From Sulfurospirillum arcachonense DSM 9755 (GTDB lineage: Bacteria; Campylobacterota; Campylobacteria; Campylobacterales; Sulfurospirillaceae): DNA of 64,000 nucleotides. A program made the position numbers and the translations under genes. Where the stretch lies: the NCBI RefSeq assembly GCF_000597725.1, contig NZ_JFBL01000001.1:124001-188000 (forward strand), in the 5' to 3' direction. A model generated the notes under the pieces. The model was not told where the DNA came from, ran no database searches, and was given only the letters and a program-made list of their open reading frames with translations. The first letter of the stretch is position 1; every line of letters starts with the position of its first letter. This document shows positions 3,268-27,032 of the stretch, in pieces.

Positions 3268-5010
3268 CTACATATTTTTTAAAGGATGATTCTTTAAAGT
3301 CTGTGAATATCTTTTAAGATCCTTATGAGTTAATACTTTAGACTTTTTACTATTGATATCCACAATTGTTACTCTTTCTGTACAAGAATAACAAGGATCA
3401 AGTGAACAGACAATCAATGCCGCATCCGCTATAGTGTTACCACGGAATTGGTATCTTAAAGAAGGCCAGTTGTTGTAAGTAGCCGCGCGACAACGCCATC
3501 TATATACTTTTTGTGCATTACCATGCATAATCCAATGAATATTTTCTCCACGAGGCGCTTCATCATTTCCTATTGCATATGCTCCTGGTTTAATCATTGT
3601 CTGAGGTTTTATAATAGTTTGACCACCAGGCATCATTTCAAAACATTGACGTATAATTGATATTGATTCGAGAAGTTCTTGGTATCTAACACTTTCTCTC
3701 GAATACACATCACAACCATGTTCAACTGCAATATTAAATTCCAATTGATTAAAGAAATCATATGGATGATCATGACGTGAATCACGTCCAAAACCTGAGC
3801 CTCTCATATTTGGTCCAACTGGTGAAAAATCTCTTGCAACTTGACGATCCAAGATACCAACACCTTTCCAACGATTGATTTGTGCTTTATCATCCATAAC
3901 AGCATCCCAAACTTCTATGAGTTGCTTTTCAATGGTGACTAAAAGTTCTAAACTTTTTTTAATTTCTGTTCCACTCATATCTCTACGTAATCCACCCATA
4001 ACAACATTACCATATGTCTTACGACCACCAGTAACTAACTGAGCTAATTCCATAGTAAATTCACGAATTCTAAATATATGCATAAATGCATTTACATTAC
4101 CTGTTACTTCACAAGCTAAACCTATATTTAATAGATGAGAATGTAATCTTTCTATTTCCAAACAAATTACTCTCATTGCTTGTGCTCTTAAAGGTACTTC
4201 AATACCTACTGCCTTTTCAGCAGCTTCAATACAACCAATAGCATGTGCATATCCACAAATACCACAAACTCTCTCAGCCAAATAGCCCATCTGATCATAG
4301 TTCATTCTATTTTCTGCAAGTTTTTCCATACCACGATGTTGATAAAATAGTCTAAAATCGGCATCAATGATAGTATCACCATCACAATATAATCTAAAAT
4401 GTCCAGGCTCATCACTTGTTATATGAAGAGGTCCTAAAGGAACATCTACAACTCCTGATCCATTTGGTTCTAAAAATTTATAATCAGGCTCATCCCTATG
4501 ATCCACGGGATCAGGACGATGTCTATAATCCATAGCATCTTTTTTTAATGGAAATAAATCTTTTGGCCAATCATCTGAAACTACAAGTCTTCTTGGATCT
4601 GGCAGACCAACTGCTGTTAAACCAAACATATCATACGCTTCACGTTCGTACCAAACGGCTGCTGGAACTTTACATGTAACAGATGGAAAAGTTGGATCAT
4701 TCGCTGGAATATATGTTTTAACTGTTATCCAACATTTTTGCTCTTGAGGAAGTTCATCCTCTATAGTCATCTTTCCGCCTTCCATAGATAAGACATAATA
4801 AAGAGCATAATTACCATTTAATTGTCTTTCATCATTGGGAATCATACTTGATAACCAACCACCCATGTCATAGTAAAGCATTCTAACTGCTTCAGGAAGA
4901 TCATTTCTATCTACCGTGATAGTCACTTGATCTTCTGTTTGTCTTTCTATGTTATGTACAGTTATTTTTTCTTTAACTTTACTTATAAAATTATCGCCTT
5001 TTTTCATCAT
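3268..5010 (-). CDS. hyfG: [NiFe]-hydrogenase large subunit of formate hydrogenlyase, NuoC/NuoD-like fusion (HyfG/HycE)
   Basis: At 580 residues it has the group 4 layout: an N-terminal NuoC-like 30-kDa domain (about 1-170, ending in a DRRLVVSDDWP region) and a C-terminal NuoD-like catalytic domain. The nickel ligands are visible as RVCGICGYAHAIGC (proximal CxxC) and SLDPCYSCTER near the C-terminus. The 34 residues after CYSCTER (cut predicted after Arg 546) match the extension that HycI removes after nickel insertion. This is the proton-reducing, hydrogen-evolving subunit, facing the cytoplasm. Confidence 0.95.
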   Translation of the reverse strand: MMKKGDNFISKVKEKITVHNIERQTEDQVTITVDRNDLPEAVRMLYYDMGGWLSSMIPNDERQLNGNYALYYVLSMEGGKMTIEDELPQEQKCWITVKTYIPANDPTFPSVTCKVPAAVWYEREAYDMFGLTAVGLPDPRRLVVSDDWPKDLFPLKKDAMDYRHRPDPVDHRDEPDYKFLEPNGSGVVDVPLGPLHITSDEPGHFRLYCDGDTIIDADFRLFYQHRGMEKLAENRMNYDQMGYLAERVCGICGYAHAIGCIEAAEKAVGIEVPLRAQAMRVICLEIERLHSHLLNIGLACEVTGNVNAFMHIFRIREFTMELAQLVTGGRKTYGNVVMGGLRRDMSGTEIKKSLELLVTIEKQLIEVWDAVMDDKAQINRWKGVGILDRQVARDFSPVGPNMRGSGFGRDSRHDHPYDFFNQLEFNIAVEHGCDVYSRESVRYQELLESISIIRQCFEMMPGGQTIIKPQTMIKPGAYAIGNDEAPRGENIHWIMHGNAQKVYRWRCRAATYNNWPSLRYQFRGNTIADAALIVCSLDPCYSCTERVTIVDINSKKSKVLTHKDLKRYSQTLKNHPLKNM

Positions 5011-5016
5011 TAATCC

Positions 5017-6501
5017 TTATACACCGGTTATTATTTTTACTGCATTATTTAGTAGAGTTACCCAACCATCAACAGAAAATATACCAAAAATAATTATTAG
5101 AGCAGCAAGACCTATTAAAGGTAAATTTGCACTCCATTCAATTTTACTAGTTAATATTTTTGTTTTACTTTCACCAAAAGTTGCTAAATTAAAGTGAGAA
5201 AAGTCAGCAATAAAAATAACTATCAATCCTATAATAAATAAAACTACAGGAAGAAAAATCCCTGTATTAATTGACTCTTGAACAATTAAAAATTCACTTA
5301 CAAAAATAGCAAATCCAGGAACACCTACTAAAGAACAAATAGCAATACCAAAAAGAATTGCTGTAATAGGTGCTATTTTAATAAGTCCACCCATTTTTGT
5401 CATATCTCTTGTTCCATAAATTTTGACCATATTTCCTGTTACACAAAATGCTAATGCTTTTGTTACTGAGTGAGCTAAAGCATGAAAAAGTGCTGCAAAT
5501 AATCCTAAGAAACCACCAACACCAAGACCAAAAGCAATAACACCCATGTGTGCTATTGAGTGATAAGCAAACATTCTTTTTACATCATGTTGTCTTATTA
5601 GAAATAGTGCTGCAATAAATATAGTCACCAATCCACTAATTATCATTATTGATTGAACATACTCAAAACCAACCATAGAATTACCAACAACTGCGTAATA
5701 TCTGATAAGTCCTAAGATTGCACATTTAAGTAAAATACCTGAAAGCATTGCTGAAGCAGGAGCTGGTCCTTCTGAATGCACATCTGGTAACCAAGTATGA
5801 GTTGGAGCAAGTCCTGCTTTTGTACCAAACCCAATTAATGCAAATACAAAAATGAGTTTTAATACATCTGGATTAATTTCTTTTGCATGAGCCATTAAAG
5901 TAGTCCAAAGCATTATGCTATGGCTATCATTAATTACAGAAAATCCTGCACTATAAAGTAAAACCGTTGCATAAAGAGCAAAAGCTAAACCAATACTACA
6001 AATTACGATATATTTCCAACCACTCTCAGTTGATTTTTTACCTTTATGAACTGCTACCATAAATACTGATGAGAGTGTAGTTGCTTCAATAGCTACCCAC
6101 ATAAGCGCAATATTATTAGCAATTACTGAAAAGGTCATCGTAAAAACAAATAGATGTGAAAGAGCAAAAAATAATTTCGCATCTTTTAAAGTGATTTCAT
6201 TTTTTTCTATTTCCCATTGCATATACTTCACAGAATATAAGTTTACTAATAATCCTGTAATGCCAATAAGAGATAAAAATACTCCACCTAAAGAATCCAA
6301 AAACAACATTTGGTCATAAGCAAATAAAACCTTTCCATCAATAACACTTAAAACTGCTTTCATAGCAATCAAAGTTGATACAATAGAACCTATTACATGT
6401 ACAGTACTGAGTACTTTAAAGTTTGTTGGCATTAGCCATATCACTATTGATGCAACAATAGGCACAATCAATAATAATGTTAATAATTGTTGAATATCCA
6501 T
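5017..6501 (-). CDS. hyfF: Membrane subunit of formate hydrogenlyase, NuoN/NuoM-like (HyfF)
   Basis: The 494-residue protein is an antiporter-like (Mrp/Nuo) membrane protein with about 14 hydrophobic segments. Family landmarks include AIEATTLSS (conserved Glu), FGTKAGLAPTHTWLPDVHSEGPAPASAMLSG (conserved Lys and His) and KRMFAYHSIAHMG. HyfF proteins are present in hydrogenase-4 type complexes but absent from the simpler E. coli Hyc complex, so this points to an extended membrane arm. Proton or sodium pumping is inferred from the family, not shown. Confidence 0.92.
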   Translation of the reverse strand: MDIQQLLTLLLIVPIVASIVIWLMPTNFKVLSTVHVIGSIVSTLIAMKAVLSVIDGKVLFAYDQMLFLDSLGGVFLSLIGITGLLVNLYSVKYMQWEIEKNEITLKDAKLFFALSHLFVFTMTFSVIANNIALMWVAIEATTLSSVFMVAVHKGKKSTESGWKYIVICSIGLAFALYATVLLYSAGFSVINDSHSIMLWTTLMAHAKEINPDVLKLIFVFALIGFGTKAGLAPTHTWLPDVHSEGPAPASAMLSGILLKCAILGLIRYYAVVGNSMVGFEYVQSIMIISGLVTIFIAALFLIRQHDVKRMFAYHSIAHMGVIAFGLGVGGFLGLFAALFHALAHSVTKALAFCVTGNMVKIYGTRDMTKMGGLIKIAPITAILFGIAICSLVGVPGFAIFVSEFLIVQESINTGIFLPVVLFIIGLIVIFIADFSHFNLATFGESKTKILTSKIEWSANLPLIGLAALIIIFGIFSVDGWVTLLNNAVKIITGV

Positions 6502-19119: not shown

Positions 19120-22100
19120 CTATTTTACATCTTCACTTAATTTTTCTTGAGTAACTTTTTTAATCGCACTAAAATCATTTTTACCAGTACCTAACTTTGG
19201 AATTTCTTCTACATGTAAAAAATTTGAAGGAATCATAAGTGGATTTATATCAGCATCTAAAAATAATTTTTTAAGATCTTGTATTTCTTTGGTAGTTGTA
19301 AAAATCATAACAATTTTTTCACCCTTTTTTTCATCAGCAAATGCACTGACAGCACATTCAAAGCTTTCATCATTTACTAATTCTGTCATTTTTTCTTCAA
19401 CTTCACTCAAAGAAATCATTTCACCACCAATCTTAGCAAAACGTGAGTATCGTCCTAAAATACTTAAAAAACCATCAGCATCTAATTTACCTTTATCTCC
19501 ACTTTTATACCAACGTACACCATTTTCTTCCAAAATAGCATCTGCTGTTTTTGCTTCATCTTTGAGGTATCCTTTCATGATCTGTGTTCCTCCAATAAGG
19601 ATCAACCCCTCTTCCCCATTTGGAACATCTTGATAATTTTCAGGATTTACAATACGTATACGTGTCCCTGGCAATGCCATTCCAACAGTACCTTGTTTTT
19701 TCCCTTCTTGAACAGTCCAATAACGTGGATTTAACACATCAGGAATATTTACACAAGCTACTGGTGTAGTCTCAGTCGCTCCATACCCTTCTAAAACATC
19801 TTTACCAAACTTCACCTTAAATCCATCACGTACATCAGGATTTAATTTCTCTGCCCCAGCAATAATCAAACGTAAACTTTCAAACATTAATGGATGAAGT
19901 TTTCTATTACGATTATAAAGACGTAAAAATGTGGAAGTCGCACAAAGGATAGTTGCTTGGTGTGTTGCAACTACTTTTCCCATTCCAACAGCATCAGTTG
20001 GATCAGGATGACATACTAAAGGAATACCTTCTACTAATGGCATTAAAGTCGTAATGGTAAATCCAAATGAATGAAATGGAGGTAATGAACCAACAATAAC
20101 ATCATTTGCATCTGGATTTAAAATAGACACACTTTGTTTGATATTTCCTACTAAATTTTTATGTGAGAGTTCAATACCTTTTGGCAAACCTTCACTACCA
20201 CTACTAAACAAAATAGCTGCTGTTTCTTCCATGCAAACACTTTTAAAATACAAAGCTTTAATCAAAGCTGATGGCATGAATTTGGCTAGAAGTAAATTAA
20301 AAATAAAGCCTGATTTAGAAATTTTTTCTTTCATATCTTCCATAATAAGAACATTAACATTTTGCAAAAGTGCTTCTATATCAAAGCCTTTAGCTTTAAG
20401 CTTAGTCAAAAACTTTGAAGATGTTACTACTGTTTTAACTTCGGCGATATTTAGTGCATGTAAAAATGCTTCTTTTGATGCTGTATAGTTTAAATTAACA
20501 ACGGTTTTTCCTTGAACAAGAAGCGCCATATTGGCGATGACATTACCAGCAGAAGCAGGAAGTATCACTCCTACATTTTGTTCATTTTTCACCTTTACAT
20601 GTAACAAAGAATGAAAACTAAGAACTGATGCAATTAACTTAGTATGAGAAAGAGTTCCGCCAGAACTATCTGCTACACTCATCTCACTTCCTAACATTTT
20701 AGCTCTATCAATCCACAAATGTTGCACTGGTTCTAATACGTTGATATACTCATTCCATGAATCAACAGAAATCCCATTTATCGCTTCTTTTAGTTTTACA
20801 CGATCTGTATCCATTGGCATAGGTGAACCAAAAGCAAAAGTTACATCACGATTTAAGGCTGCTGTGCCTTGTTTCATCTTATTTGAAGCAAAAGAAAAAC
20901 GACTTCCCCATAAACCTTTTAAAAAGAATGGCACAATAGTATACTCATTTGTCGTTACTATCTTCTCAAAACCACCTTTAAATTCACCAAGATGACCATT
21001 ACGACTGATAGCACCTTCTGGAAAAAGTGCAACTACTTCACCTTTATCTAGATATTCACCAATTGTTTTAAATGCACTACGACTTGCACGAGAAGAGATA
21101 GGAATAACTCCAAAAAAATCTAAAAAGATTTTAAGATACCATTTTTCATATATATTTCTCTCCATCACAAAACGAACTCTTCTTGGACTTGCTATTTGAA
21201 CAATAGCCCAATCCAACCAACTAATATGATTTCCTAGAAGAAGAACCCCTCCATTTGATGGAAGATTATCAAGTCCTGAAACTTTTATATTGTAACGAAG
21301 ATTAGCCAAACGATATATAATAAAACGCACTAACAACTGCGGTAATTTAATGATAGTATAAAGAGAACCCACTACTACAATAATACCTAAAAAACTAAAT
21401 AACAATTCAATAGGAAAAGTATAAAGTGACCAAATAATAGTAAAACCAAGAAAGACTAGCATCATTAAAGTTTGTACAAAGTTATTTGCAGCAAGAACAC
21501 GTCCTAAATCATTCTCTTTTGCATAAAATTGAATAAGTGCATTAAGTGGAATAATAAAAATTCCTCCACAAAAACCAAACAAAAAGAACAGTAAACCAAA
21601 GATGATTGGACTTGATGTTCCAGATAACCAAAATAGAGATAAAGCCATCCCTGCAGCACCCAACGGAATCACTCCTGTTTCAATATAATGCTTTGATATT
21701 TTTGAGTGATACAAAGAACCAACTACAATACCAAGTCCACCTAATGCCATTAATCCTTGCGCAACAACAGTATTTTCTACTCCAGCCTTTTGTTCTAATA
21801 ATGTTCCAAATAAAGCAAATACAACTTGAGAAACACTCCAAAATAATCCTAAACCAATTACACTAAGCCAAATAGCTTCTGTACGTAATAAAGTTTTTAA
21901 ATTTTCTTTTAAATATAAAGCTTTAAAATATTTTTTACGATCAAAACTCAATGAAGGAGAAGAAGAAGCTTTTGGTGCTAATTTAAAAGAAAACCATGCT
22001 TCTAATAATGTTGCGCCAATCAAAATATATCCCATTGGAGCCATCATCGTGATTATGTCATTAGGATTTTTCATACCTTCAACAAAAAAATATTCAAAAA

Positions 22101-22581
22101 TTACGGAGTATAAAACAGCACCTATTAAAATAGCTACAATTGTCACTGCTTGCACCATTCCATTAGCAGATGCCAAATTTTCTTTTCCTACTAATTCTTT
22201 GATGTATCCATATTTCGCTGGTGAGTACAGTGCACTTTGTGCTGCTAGTAAAAATGTAAGTGCAAATGAGAGCCAAAATGCTCCTAAATGATAACTTACA
22301 GTAATAGCACAAGCAATAACAATAGCTACAAGAGCACTGATTTGAATAACACGAGGCTTGGAAAACTTATCTGAAAGAAAACCAGAAGGAGTAAATAACA
22401 TGATAAATGGTAATAATACCAATCCATTGACAATAGCCGTATAAATTACTTGCTCATGACCATCAAAGCTTTTAAAAACTGTATTTTGAATGATGATTTT
22501 ATGTCCAAGATCAGTCATAGCATTTAAAAAAACAATAAGTATATAAGAAGCAAAACCTCTATAAGAAAATAACGCTTTCAT
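19120..22581 (-). CDS. aas: LplT-Aas type fusion: MFS lysophospholipid transporter + acyltransferase + acyl-ACP synthetase
   Basis: The 1153-residue protein has three modules. Residues ~1-405 form a 12-helix MFS domain similar to LplT. Residues ~430-640 are a PlsC acyltransferase with NHISWLD (H-x4-D) and FPEGAISRNG. Residues ~650-1150 are an AMP-binding acyl-acyl carrier protein synthetase with ILFSSGSEGLPKGIELSH and YGATETTP. The combined activity flips lysophospholipids across the inner membrane and re-acylates them, repairing membrane lipids. It is co-transcribed with an upstream MerR regulator (ATGA overlap at 22578-22581). Confidence 0.92.
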   Translation of the reverse strand: MKALFSYRGFASYILIVFLNAMTDLGHKIIIQNTVFKSFDGHEQVIYTAIVNGLVLLPFIMLFTPSGFLSDKFSKPRVIQISALVAIVIACAITVSYHLGAFWLSFALTFLLAAQSALYSPAKYGYIKELVGKENLASANGMVQAVTIVAILIGAVLYSVIFEYFFVEGMKNPNDIITMMAPMGYILIGATLLEAWFSFKLAPKASSSPSLSFDRKKYFKALYLKENLKTLLRTEAIWLSVIGLGLFWSVSQVVFALFGTLLEQKAGVENTVVAQGLMALGGLGIVVGSLYHSKISKHYIETGVIPLGAAGMALSLFWLSGTSSPIIFGLLFFLFGFCGGIFIIPLNALIQFYAKENDLGRVLAANNFVQTLMMLVFLGFTIIWSLYTFPIELLFSFLGIIVVVGSLYTIIKLPQLLVRFIIYRLANLRYNIKVSGLDNLPSNGGVLLLGNHISWLDWAIVQIASPRRVRFVMERNIYEKWYLKIFLDFFGVIPISSRASRSAFKTIGEYLDKGEVVALFPEGAISRNGHLGEFKGGFEKIVTTNEYTIVPFFLKGLWGSRFSFASNKMKQGTAALNRDVTFAFGSPMPMDTDRVKLKEAINGISVDSWNEYINVLEPVQHLWIDRAKMLGSEMSVADSSGGTLSHTKLIASVLSFHSLLHVKVKNEQNVGVILPASAGNVIANMALLVQGKTVVNLNYTASKEAFLHALNIAEVKTVVTSSKFLTKLKAKGFDIEALLQNVNVLIMEDMKEKISKSGFIFNLLLAKFMPSALIKALYFKSVCMEETAAILFSSGSEGLPKGIELSHKNLVGNIKQSVSILNPDANDVIVGSLPPFHSFGFTITTLMPLVEGIPLVCHPDPTDAVGMGKVVATHQATILCATSTFLRLYNRNRKLHPLMFESLRLIIAGAEKLNPDVRDGFKVKFGKDVLEGYGATETTPVACVNIPDVLNPRYWTVQEGKKQGTVGMALPGTRIRIVNPENYQDVPNGEEGLILIGGTQIMKGYLKDEAKTADAILEENGVRWYKSGDKGKLDADGFLSILGRYSRFAKIGGEMISLSEVEEKMTELVNDESFECAVSAFADEKKGEKIVMIFTTTKEIQDLKKLFLDADINPLMIPSNFLHVEEIPKLGTGKNDFSAIKKVTQEKLSEDVK

Positions 22582-25403: not shown

Positions 25404-25796
25404 TTATTTTAAAATCTTATTTAATTCAGCAGATAAATCTTGTTCTATTTCATCTTCAGAGTTTTTATTATTTAAGTAATCTTTGCAATCTTCGCAATTT
25501 TCACAAAATTCACAATTTTCACAGTTTTTACAATCTTCACAATTAAAACAATCAATACAGTTTTCACAATAATCAGTCAATTGACAATTTTTACAATTTT
25601 TAGATGAGTCACAGTTGTCACAATTTTCACAGTCTTCGCAATCTACACAGTTTAAACAATTTACACAATTTTTTAAACTATTTAACATTCTCACTGCAAT
25701 CTCTTTATCAAACTTATTCAATGATATACGGTTGTTGTTGCTATCTGTTAAAAATTTTTCATCATTGTCATTAGTTATAACTTTATATTCTTCCAT
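25404..25796 (-). CDS. Cysteine-triplet-repeat protein, unknown function
   Basis: A 130-residue protein I do not recognise. Residues 44-104 consist of 21 consecutive tripeptides of the form x-[N/D]-C: cysteine occurs at every third position (44, 47, 50 ... 104) except 65 and 74, where Ser and Thr stand in without breaking the register. That gives 19 Cys; the residue before Cys is Asn or Asp in nearly all units. The N-terminus (1-43) and C-terminus (105-130) are acidic/helical and lack Cys. No signal peptide, so probably cytoplasmic. A metal-binding or solenoid role is plausible but unproven. RBS GGGAAAT precedes ATG. Confidence 0.85.
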   Translation of the reverse strand: MEEYKVITNDNDEKFLTDSNNNRISLNKFDKEIAVRMLNSLKNCVNCLNCVDCEDCENCDNCDSSKNCKNCQLTDYCENCIDCFNCEDCKNCENCEFCENCEDCKDYLNNKNSEDEIEQDLSAELNKILK

Positions 25797-25937
25797 TTTT
25801 ATTTCCCTTTTTCATTGTCTCTATTCAAACACTAAATATTTTGTTTGAATACTACAATAAACAAAATTAGAAATCCTTAAAAATTGACTACGATGAAGTA
25901 TAAACTAACTATAAAAAATCAATATAGTAAAAGTTAT

Positions 25938-27032
25938 TTATGCTCTATGTTTCACAAAAGTTTCATAAATTTCTTCAAAAGCTTTTTCACTAGAGTTTTC
26001 AACACTTTTCATTCTTTCTATTGACTCACTAAAACTTAATTCATTAAGCCATAAATCAATAGCATCTTTTACTCCATCATGTACATTTGTATGATGCTCA
26101 CTTAATGAAGCTAAAACTTCTTTTTCGTCTTTTATTTGCTGATTATTAGCTGCAAACCATTTTCCAAATCTACATTCATTCTCATTTTGTAATGTTTCTG
26201 GTTTTGTTTGATACATAAACGCTTTATAAGCAATAAGTTTAAAAAGGATATGATCAGCTTTTCCATTTCCTATTCCAATCTCATTGGTTATATTTTTCGT
26301 GATTTTAGAAATACGATCTGAATTTGAAATCACAAATTCTAACTCTTCAAAAAATTGATTTAATGTAGTATCTATAGTACTACTACTTTCTTGGAATCTT
26401 TTAGTCATCTCTAAAATTTCTAAAGAATTTTGCTGTAGATGTGAGATATTTACTTCTACTTCTTGTGTTGCTTTTTGTGTACGCTCAGCTAGTTTTCTTA
26501 CTTCATCAGCAACAACAGCAAAACCACGTCCATGCTCACCTGCTCGGGCTGCTTCTATAGCAGCATTCAATGCTAAAAGGTTTGTTTGGTCTGAAATATC
26601 TTTAATTAAATTAATAATATCAGTAATAGAAACAACACTTTCATTGAGTGTATGCGCTCCATTTTCCAAATTTGAAGTCTCTTGTGAAATCTGTTCTATA
26701 TTTGAAACAACACTTGTTCGCTGATGCTGTACATTATCTATACGTTTACTGGTTCTTCCATTTAAGTCTGTTGCTTCATCCAGTGAATCAACATTTGCTT
26801 GCATGATTTTTTGTAAAAAGCCTACACCACTCTCATATGATTGTATAAGAAGATCTAACATTTTTAATTTTGATACAAGTTCAATATCTTGGTTTTTTTC
26901 TTCTTCTTTAAAAGTGTTTTTCTTTTTGATTTCTTCTTGAAGTAACGCTACTTCTTCTTTAAGTTTTTTATTTTCTAGTTCTAATCCAGAGACTTGTTCT
27001 TTTTCATTGTCATCATTATTAAATAATCCCAT
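25938..27032 (-). CDS. Soluble methyl-accepting chemotaxis protein with CZB domain (TlpD-like)
   Basis: A 364-residue receptor without membrane segments. Residues ~15-60 are a charged coiled coil. The chemoreceptor signalling hairpin with [36 protein letters not shown] is at about 145-180. The C-terminal zinc-binding CZB domain shows [15 protein letters not shown] and HHTNVHD (the His/Cys ligands). This domain order is that of H. pylori TlpD, a cytoplasmic receptor that responds to oxidants and energy state. It is expected to couple to CheW/CheA. Stand-alone gene. Confidence 0.92.

Follow-up and report, generated by a model that had tools for sequence, protein, structure and literature searches.

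The 64,000-nucleotide stretch of the Sulfurospirillum arcachonense genome that we analyzed (the window) encodes a small protein that belongs, as judged from its sequence, to a large, uncharacterized and mostly phage-borne family. In this family, which is real and widespread, an N-terminal cap is followed by an array of tripeptides with cysteine in every third position. On balance, sequence comparisons and predicted models suggest that the x-x-C array forms a β-solenoid with 12-residue coils.

The gene occupies positions 25404 to 25796 on the minus strand of the window, stop codon included, and encodes 130 amino acids from an ATG start, with a likely ribosome-binding site, AAGGGA, read from the sequence upstream of the ATG (25804 to 25809, minus strand). 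Residues 1 to 43 (25668 to 25796, minus strand) form a cysteine-free cap with the consensus W.D.N.N.W....[YF]t.eeA...S.sL.N, supported by alignments, a leave-one-out HMM, and AF2. Register counting and DSSP analysis of the AF2 model place the array at residues 44 to 104 (25485 to 25667, minus strand), with 19 cysteines at 21 in-register positions. The remaining residues, 105 to 130, together with the stop codon (25404 to 25484, minus strand), make up an acidic tail for which AF2 predicts a helix at residues 111 to 129. All 19 cysteines are spaced by three or six residues and therefore lie in one register, with the codons for Ser65 (25602 to 25604, minus strand) and Thr74 (25575 to 25577, minus strand) at cysteine positions. 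The residue before cysteine is Asn in 12 cases, Asp in five, and Tyr and Phe in one each. An earlier note on this DNA, which gave no strand, had described the strict recurrence of cysteine, the register kept through Ser65 and Thr74, and the preceding Asn or Asp, and the sequence bears out all three. The eight-cysteine (C-x-x) register pattern occurs three times in the window, always within this gene, and is absent from 100 dinucleotide-preserving shuffles of the window; a genome-wide pattern scan identified the array as the only one of its kind in the 2.66-Mb genome. The earlier note had also read a 9-bp DNA period as growth by repeat expansion. That period is present but imperfect, with the best-scoring tandem period being 36 bp (four units), and expansion fits the range of array lengths across the family, from 9 to 56 cysteines, while codon identity favors no lag. 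The protein is strongly acidic (net charge −17, with −13 in the array), and its array has few aromatic residues (one Tyr and two Phe). Inspection by eye shows no evident signal peptide, and the protein is therefore probably cytosolic.

Ordinary chromosomal genes flank the array gene. Just upstream, at 25938 to 27032 (minus strand), is a gene for a chemoreceptor with MCP signaling and CZB zinc-binding domains. A 74%-identical receptor in another genome, G010, has no array gene beside it, and we rejected an operon or partnership with the chemoreceptor because the link is not conserved in relatives. Elsewhere in the window, a gene at 19120 to 22581 (minus strand) encodes a 1153-residue protein whose sequence reads as a fusion of transporter, acyltransferase, and AMP-ligase (Aas/LplT-like).

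Residues 15 to 86 of the window protein match PHROG 15341, which has unknown function, with E=3.2e-13, and the same PHROG is matched by all 43 of the aligned family members tested. Homology extends to the cysteine-free cap: with the cap profile rebuilt without the window protein to avoid circularity, the leave-one-out HMM finds residues 1 to 41 with E=1.8e-6, compared with 0.17 for the best of 500 shuffles. To gather relatives, we scanned viral contigs by pattern and searched 397 genomes from the phylum with a profile. Most matches to a generic (C-x-x)7-8 pattern are simple DNA repeats or frame artefacts, so arrays were filtered for Asn or Asp before cysteine and for unit diversity. The profile search, a check proposed in the earlier note, found family members in 10 of the 397 genomes, and the fetched loci contain about 79 distinct cap-and-array proteins, both phage and bacterial. 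These proteins have 7 to 59 x-x-C units, with 59 units in the longest in-register array. The only relative from the genome contig search, in L002 (Liptonbacteria), was rejected as an unrelated cysteine-rich, zinc-ribbon-like protein. Searches of Pfam, NCBIfam, and PADLOC gave no credible match for the window protein, a sequence search of solved structures gave nothing significant, and tblastn against phages and plasmids gave no match, probably because of low-complexity masking. We found no description of the cap-and-array family in the literature searched, which covers few subscription journals. The earlier statement that no characterized family has this pattern is thus right as far as we searched, although PHROG 15341 is a catalogue entry for the family.

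Sequence context indicates that the cap-and-array family is mostly phage-borne or mobile, because Campylobacter phages CP21 (gp165 and gp166) and F379 (F379_210, 'cysteine rich') carry such proteins and because bacterial copies have mobile-like surroundings. In genome G348, the bacterial homologue that by eye is closest to the window protein carries a fused domain of ~170 residues that has no Pfam match, and lies between what read by eye as an IS21-like element and a GNAT toxin-antitoxin-like pair. The copies in G119 sit amid plasmid- or ICE-like genes, and the copy in G315 is close to tail-like genes. We infer that the window gene was captured from a phage or mobile element. The window protein has the cap and x-x-C array in common with PHROG 15341 members, but differs from these relatives in its chromosomal setting, in the replacement of two of its 21 cysteines, and in having no C-terminal domain.

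Variants of this architecture are also found. One phage contig (L047) carries four paralogous cap-and-array genes and another locus (L221) carries many, while a single protein in L270 contains two cap-and-array modules in tandem. Two genomes of the phylum, G291 and G203, encode the cap without any cysteine array (L318, 721 to 984, and L319, 1459 to 1737). In the Campylobacter fetus plasmid pCfviMP1 (L337), three places match, and an annotated gene covers only part of a family-like array at about 5001 to 5367. Three x-x-C phage loci (L276, L283, and L245) also encode a second cysteine repeat protein with 12 to 33 hexapeptide motifs, C-x-F-G-x-x, which is perhaps another cysteine-containing solenoid.

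The array is a portable module. The fetched loci contain 135 distinct filtered arrays, of which 66 have no cap match. Contig ends cut some of these 66 short, and the group contains at least three further N-termini that recur. Many x-x-C proteins bear one of two tail domains, a or b, after the array. Tail b (WHTCETTHCRAGW...) follows x-x-C arrays in phage proteins L345 to L348 and pentapeptide repeats in L349 to L351; L350, the one of these three that was scanned, matches PF00805 with 1.3e-56. Tail a (GSR..T..Y....CGCF.G) likewise follows x-x-C arrays, as well as YdcK-type β-solenoid repeats in phages BF766P1 (PF18836, 2.9e-15) and AP1. By sequence, three unlike repeats therefore occupy equivalent slots. 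Two of them, the pentapeptide and YdcK-type repeats, are known β-solenoids, which suggests that the x-x-C array acts as a β-solenoid in that slot. In Acidovorax phage AP1 (OM049504.1), the open reading frame for the YdcK-type solenoid with tail a (L363, 769 to 1647, plus strand) is unannotated, and the annotation instead shows an antisense open reading frame, UIS65439.1.

Stacking of the tripeptides in coils predicts similarity between units that are one coil apart. We compared whole-unit identity within arrays at lags of 1 to 14 with 2000 permutations. In cap-family arrays, the autocorrelation is maximal at lag 4 (z about 4.8-4.9), with none of the 2000 permutations as high. An independent set of 53 arrays with other caps is again maximal at lag 4 (z 3.5, P(max over lags) 0.0045), although in this set the outward residue x1 alone is maximal at lag 3, not 4. 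When the units of the window array are written in rows of four, the first column reads K-E-K-E-K-E. The lag-4 maximum and the 36-bp period of the window gene suggest that a coil probably comprises 12 residues with four inward cysteines, and argue against a turn of three residues. Recent 36-bp duplications could account for part of the lag-4 signal; matching units show much the same codon identity at every lag (0.91-0.96), which neither supports nor counters an origin by duplication.

Structure prediction, another check proposed earlier, gives β-bridges at nearly every cysteine but low confidence for the array. In the AF2 model of the window protein, pLDDT is about 85-92 for the cap and about 50 for the array, and DSSP assigns one bridge residue at nearly every cysteine. 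The model of CP21 gp165 is similar, with a β-bridge at nearly every cysteine and array pLDDT below 60. Array pLDDT is about 35-60 across models, which weakens any structural match. The top three VIA-align matches for the CP21 gp165 model are the pentapeptide-repeat proteins AlbG, a C. botulinum PRP (6fls), and MfpA (Z 2.9-3.3), a weak result that is in line with the domain architecture. The window model has no pentapeptide-repeat match of this kind, and a Foldseek search of the PDB with it gave no match. Its best BFVD match is UniProt H6SUK4 from Campylobacter virus IBB35, whose name, 'Caib/baif family protein', is probably wrong. The earlier proposal of a solenoid with three residues per turn is thus supported in its solenoid part by domain swapping, the lag-4 periodicity, and the predicted β-bridges, while the turn itself would take four tripeptides, or 12 residues.

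Cysteine is nearly invariant at the inward position, occurring in 1890 of 1910 cases (99%), a figure inflated somewhat by the requirement for flanking cysteines. If the core only had to be narrow, Ala, Ser, or Val should appear there more often, and so the thiol itself seems, from these sequences, to be selected. A rough, idealized square coil of 12 residues would place four sulfurs no more than a few ångströms from the axis, an arrangement that fits packed thiols, disulfides, or metal.

These thiols could instead belong to a flexible, metallothionein-like chain that stores or detoxifies Zn, Cu, or Cd by wrapping cysteine thiolates around metal clusters, with the periodicity reflecting dense spacing only. 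The 19 cysteines in 61 residues, the near-invariance of cysteine, the scarcity of aromatic residues in the array, and the adjacent gene for a CZB-domain chemoreceptor would all suit such a protein. However, neither Pfam nor NCBIfam gives a metallothionein family match, the chemoreceptor is not kept as a neighbor, and a three-residue register of up to 59 units with lag-4 periodicity and interchange with β-solenoids is unexpected of a flexible chelator, making this explanation unlikely. Metal could also be held within a β-helix, with four cysteines per 12-residue coil in an all-thiol core and metal ions or clusters along the axis. Such a length-tunable metal-thiolate rod, spread by phages, appears decidedly unlikely.

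A disulfide ladder within the solenoid, like that of the Tenebrio antifreeze protein, would share the 12-residue coil length proposed here. The absence of an apparent signal peptide makes disulfides less likely because a reducing cytosol is then expected. Further, odd numbers of cysteines are as common in the arrays as even numbers (43 versus 35), and neither a parity nor a modulo-4 preference is seen, which argues against obligatory pairing and leaves the ladder quite improbable.

The protein also resembles precursors of the heterocycloanthracin type such as BA_2677, which consist of a leader and Cys-Xaa-Xaa repeats (PMC2674419), and the cap could be the leader and the array the core for heterocyclization of a RiPP precursor for a thiazole peptide. 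These precursors need a cyclodehydratase, and although maturation genes can be distant, a search for YcaO found no match in the whole genome while giving positives in five control genomes. This absence contradicts a TOMM or heterocycloanthracin precursor. With no match to TIGR03601 or any other NCBIfam model at E<=10, and with relatives that bear conserved C-terminal domains after the array and have up to 59 units, the precursor reading is very improbable. That the open reading frame arose by chance or from low-complexity sequence and is not a gene, as its low complexity, 25% GC content, and want of a convincingly called promoter might suggest, is scarcely credible and is refuted by the protein-level conservation of the cap. 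The recurrence of cap-and-array genes in phages and bacteria and the plausible ribosome-binding site also speak against it.

We therefore return to the β-solenoid, for which we propose the following model. The protein would be a small, probably cytosolic solenoid derived from a phage or mobile element, in which the array of x-[N/D/G]-C tripeptides begins at the conserved globular cap. Across the family, the residue before cysteine is mostly Asp, Asn, or Gly. Four tripeptides would make one turn of a narrow β-helix, with every cysteine pointing inward, the Asn, Asp, or Gly before it forming a corner, and the remaining residue facing outward. The thiol column would set the core, whether its thiols pack together or hold metal. 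In many relatives, the array would be closed by a C-terminal domain known to follow pentapeptide repeats or YdcK β-solenoids. The array would thus replace a conventional β-helix as a rigid rod of adjustable length, with a surface that binds a partner. A phage-derived binding scaffold is the role that we favor, tentatively, and both the binding and its target are conjecture. Since DNA is mimicked by pentapeptide proteins, MfpA among them, the partner of the strongly acidic window protein could be a nucleic-acid-binding protein recognized through similar mimicry, a possibility that we consider improbable. Although 86% of the arrays are net negative, the acidity of the family is only moderate (median −6.5 per 100 residues), and DNA mimicry may therefore not extend to all members. 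Among the neighbors of array genes, none is conserved beyond groups of three to four loci, and these give no functional clue.

Confirmation of the fold would place a minimal β-solenoid with three-residue units, and with a core almost entirely of cysteine, beside the penta- and hexapeptide solenoids. Because phages appear to exchange the array for conventional β-helices within one architecture, they provide matched pairs with which to ask what phage solenoid proteins bind, and an all-thiol tube would lend itself naturally to scaffolding metal or redox chemistry.

The Tenebrio antifreeze protein (1ezg) is a β-helix with a 12-residue coil and inward cysteines. It is secreted, with two cysteines per coil in disulfides and a TCT face. 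The window protein shows no significant sequence similarity to it (phmmer E=9.9), and the TCTxSxxCxxAx repeat of insect β-helix antifreeze proteins is absent from the window protein sequence. The YdcK β-solenoid (PF18836) takes the same slot as the array before tail a in phages BF766P1 and AP1, but its repeat is G[DN]A.V. and has no cysteine core. Pentapeptide-repeat proteins (PF00805; MfpA, AlbG, and Qnr) likewise take the same slot before tail b. A Pfam scan gave no match to PF00805 or A[DN]LXX repeats in the window protein. Like the array, these proteins have Asn or Asp before the inward residue, and they give the weak fold match to the CP21 gp165 model. The array differs in its unit of three rather than five residues and in having Cys rather than Leu or Phe at the inward position.
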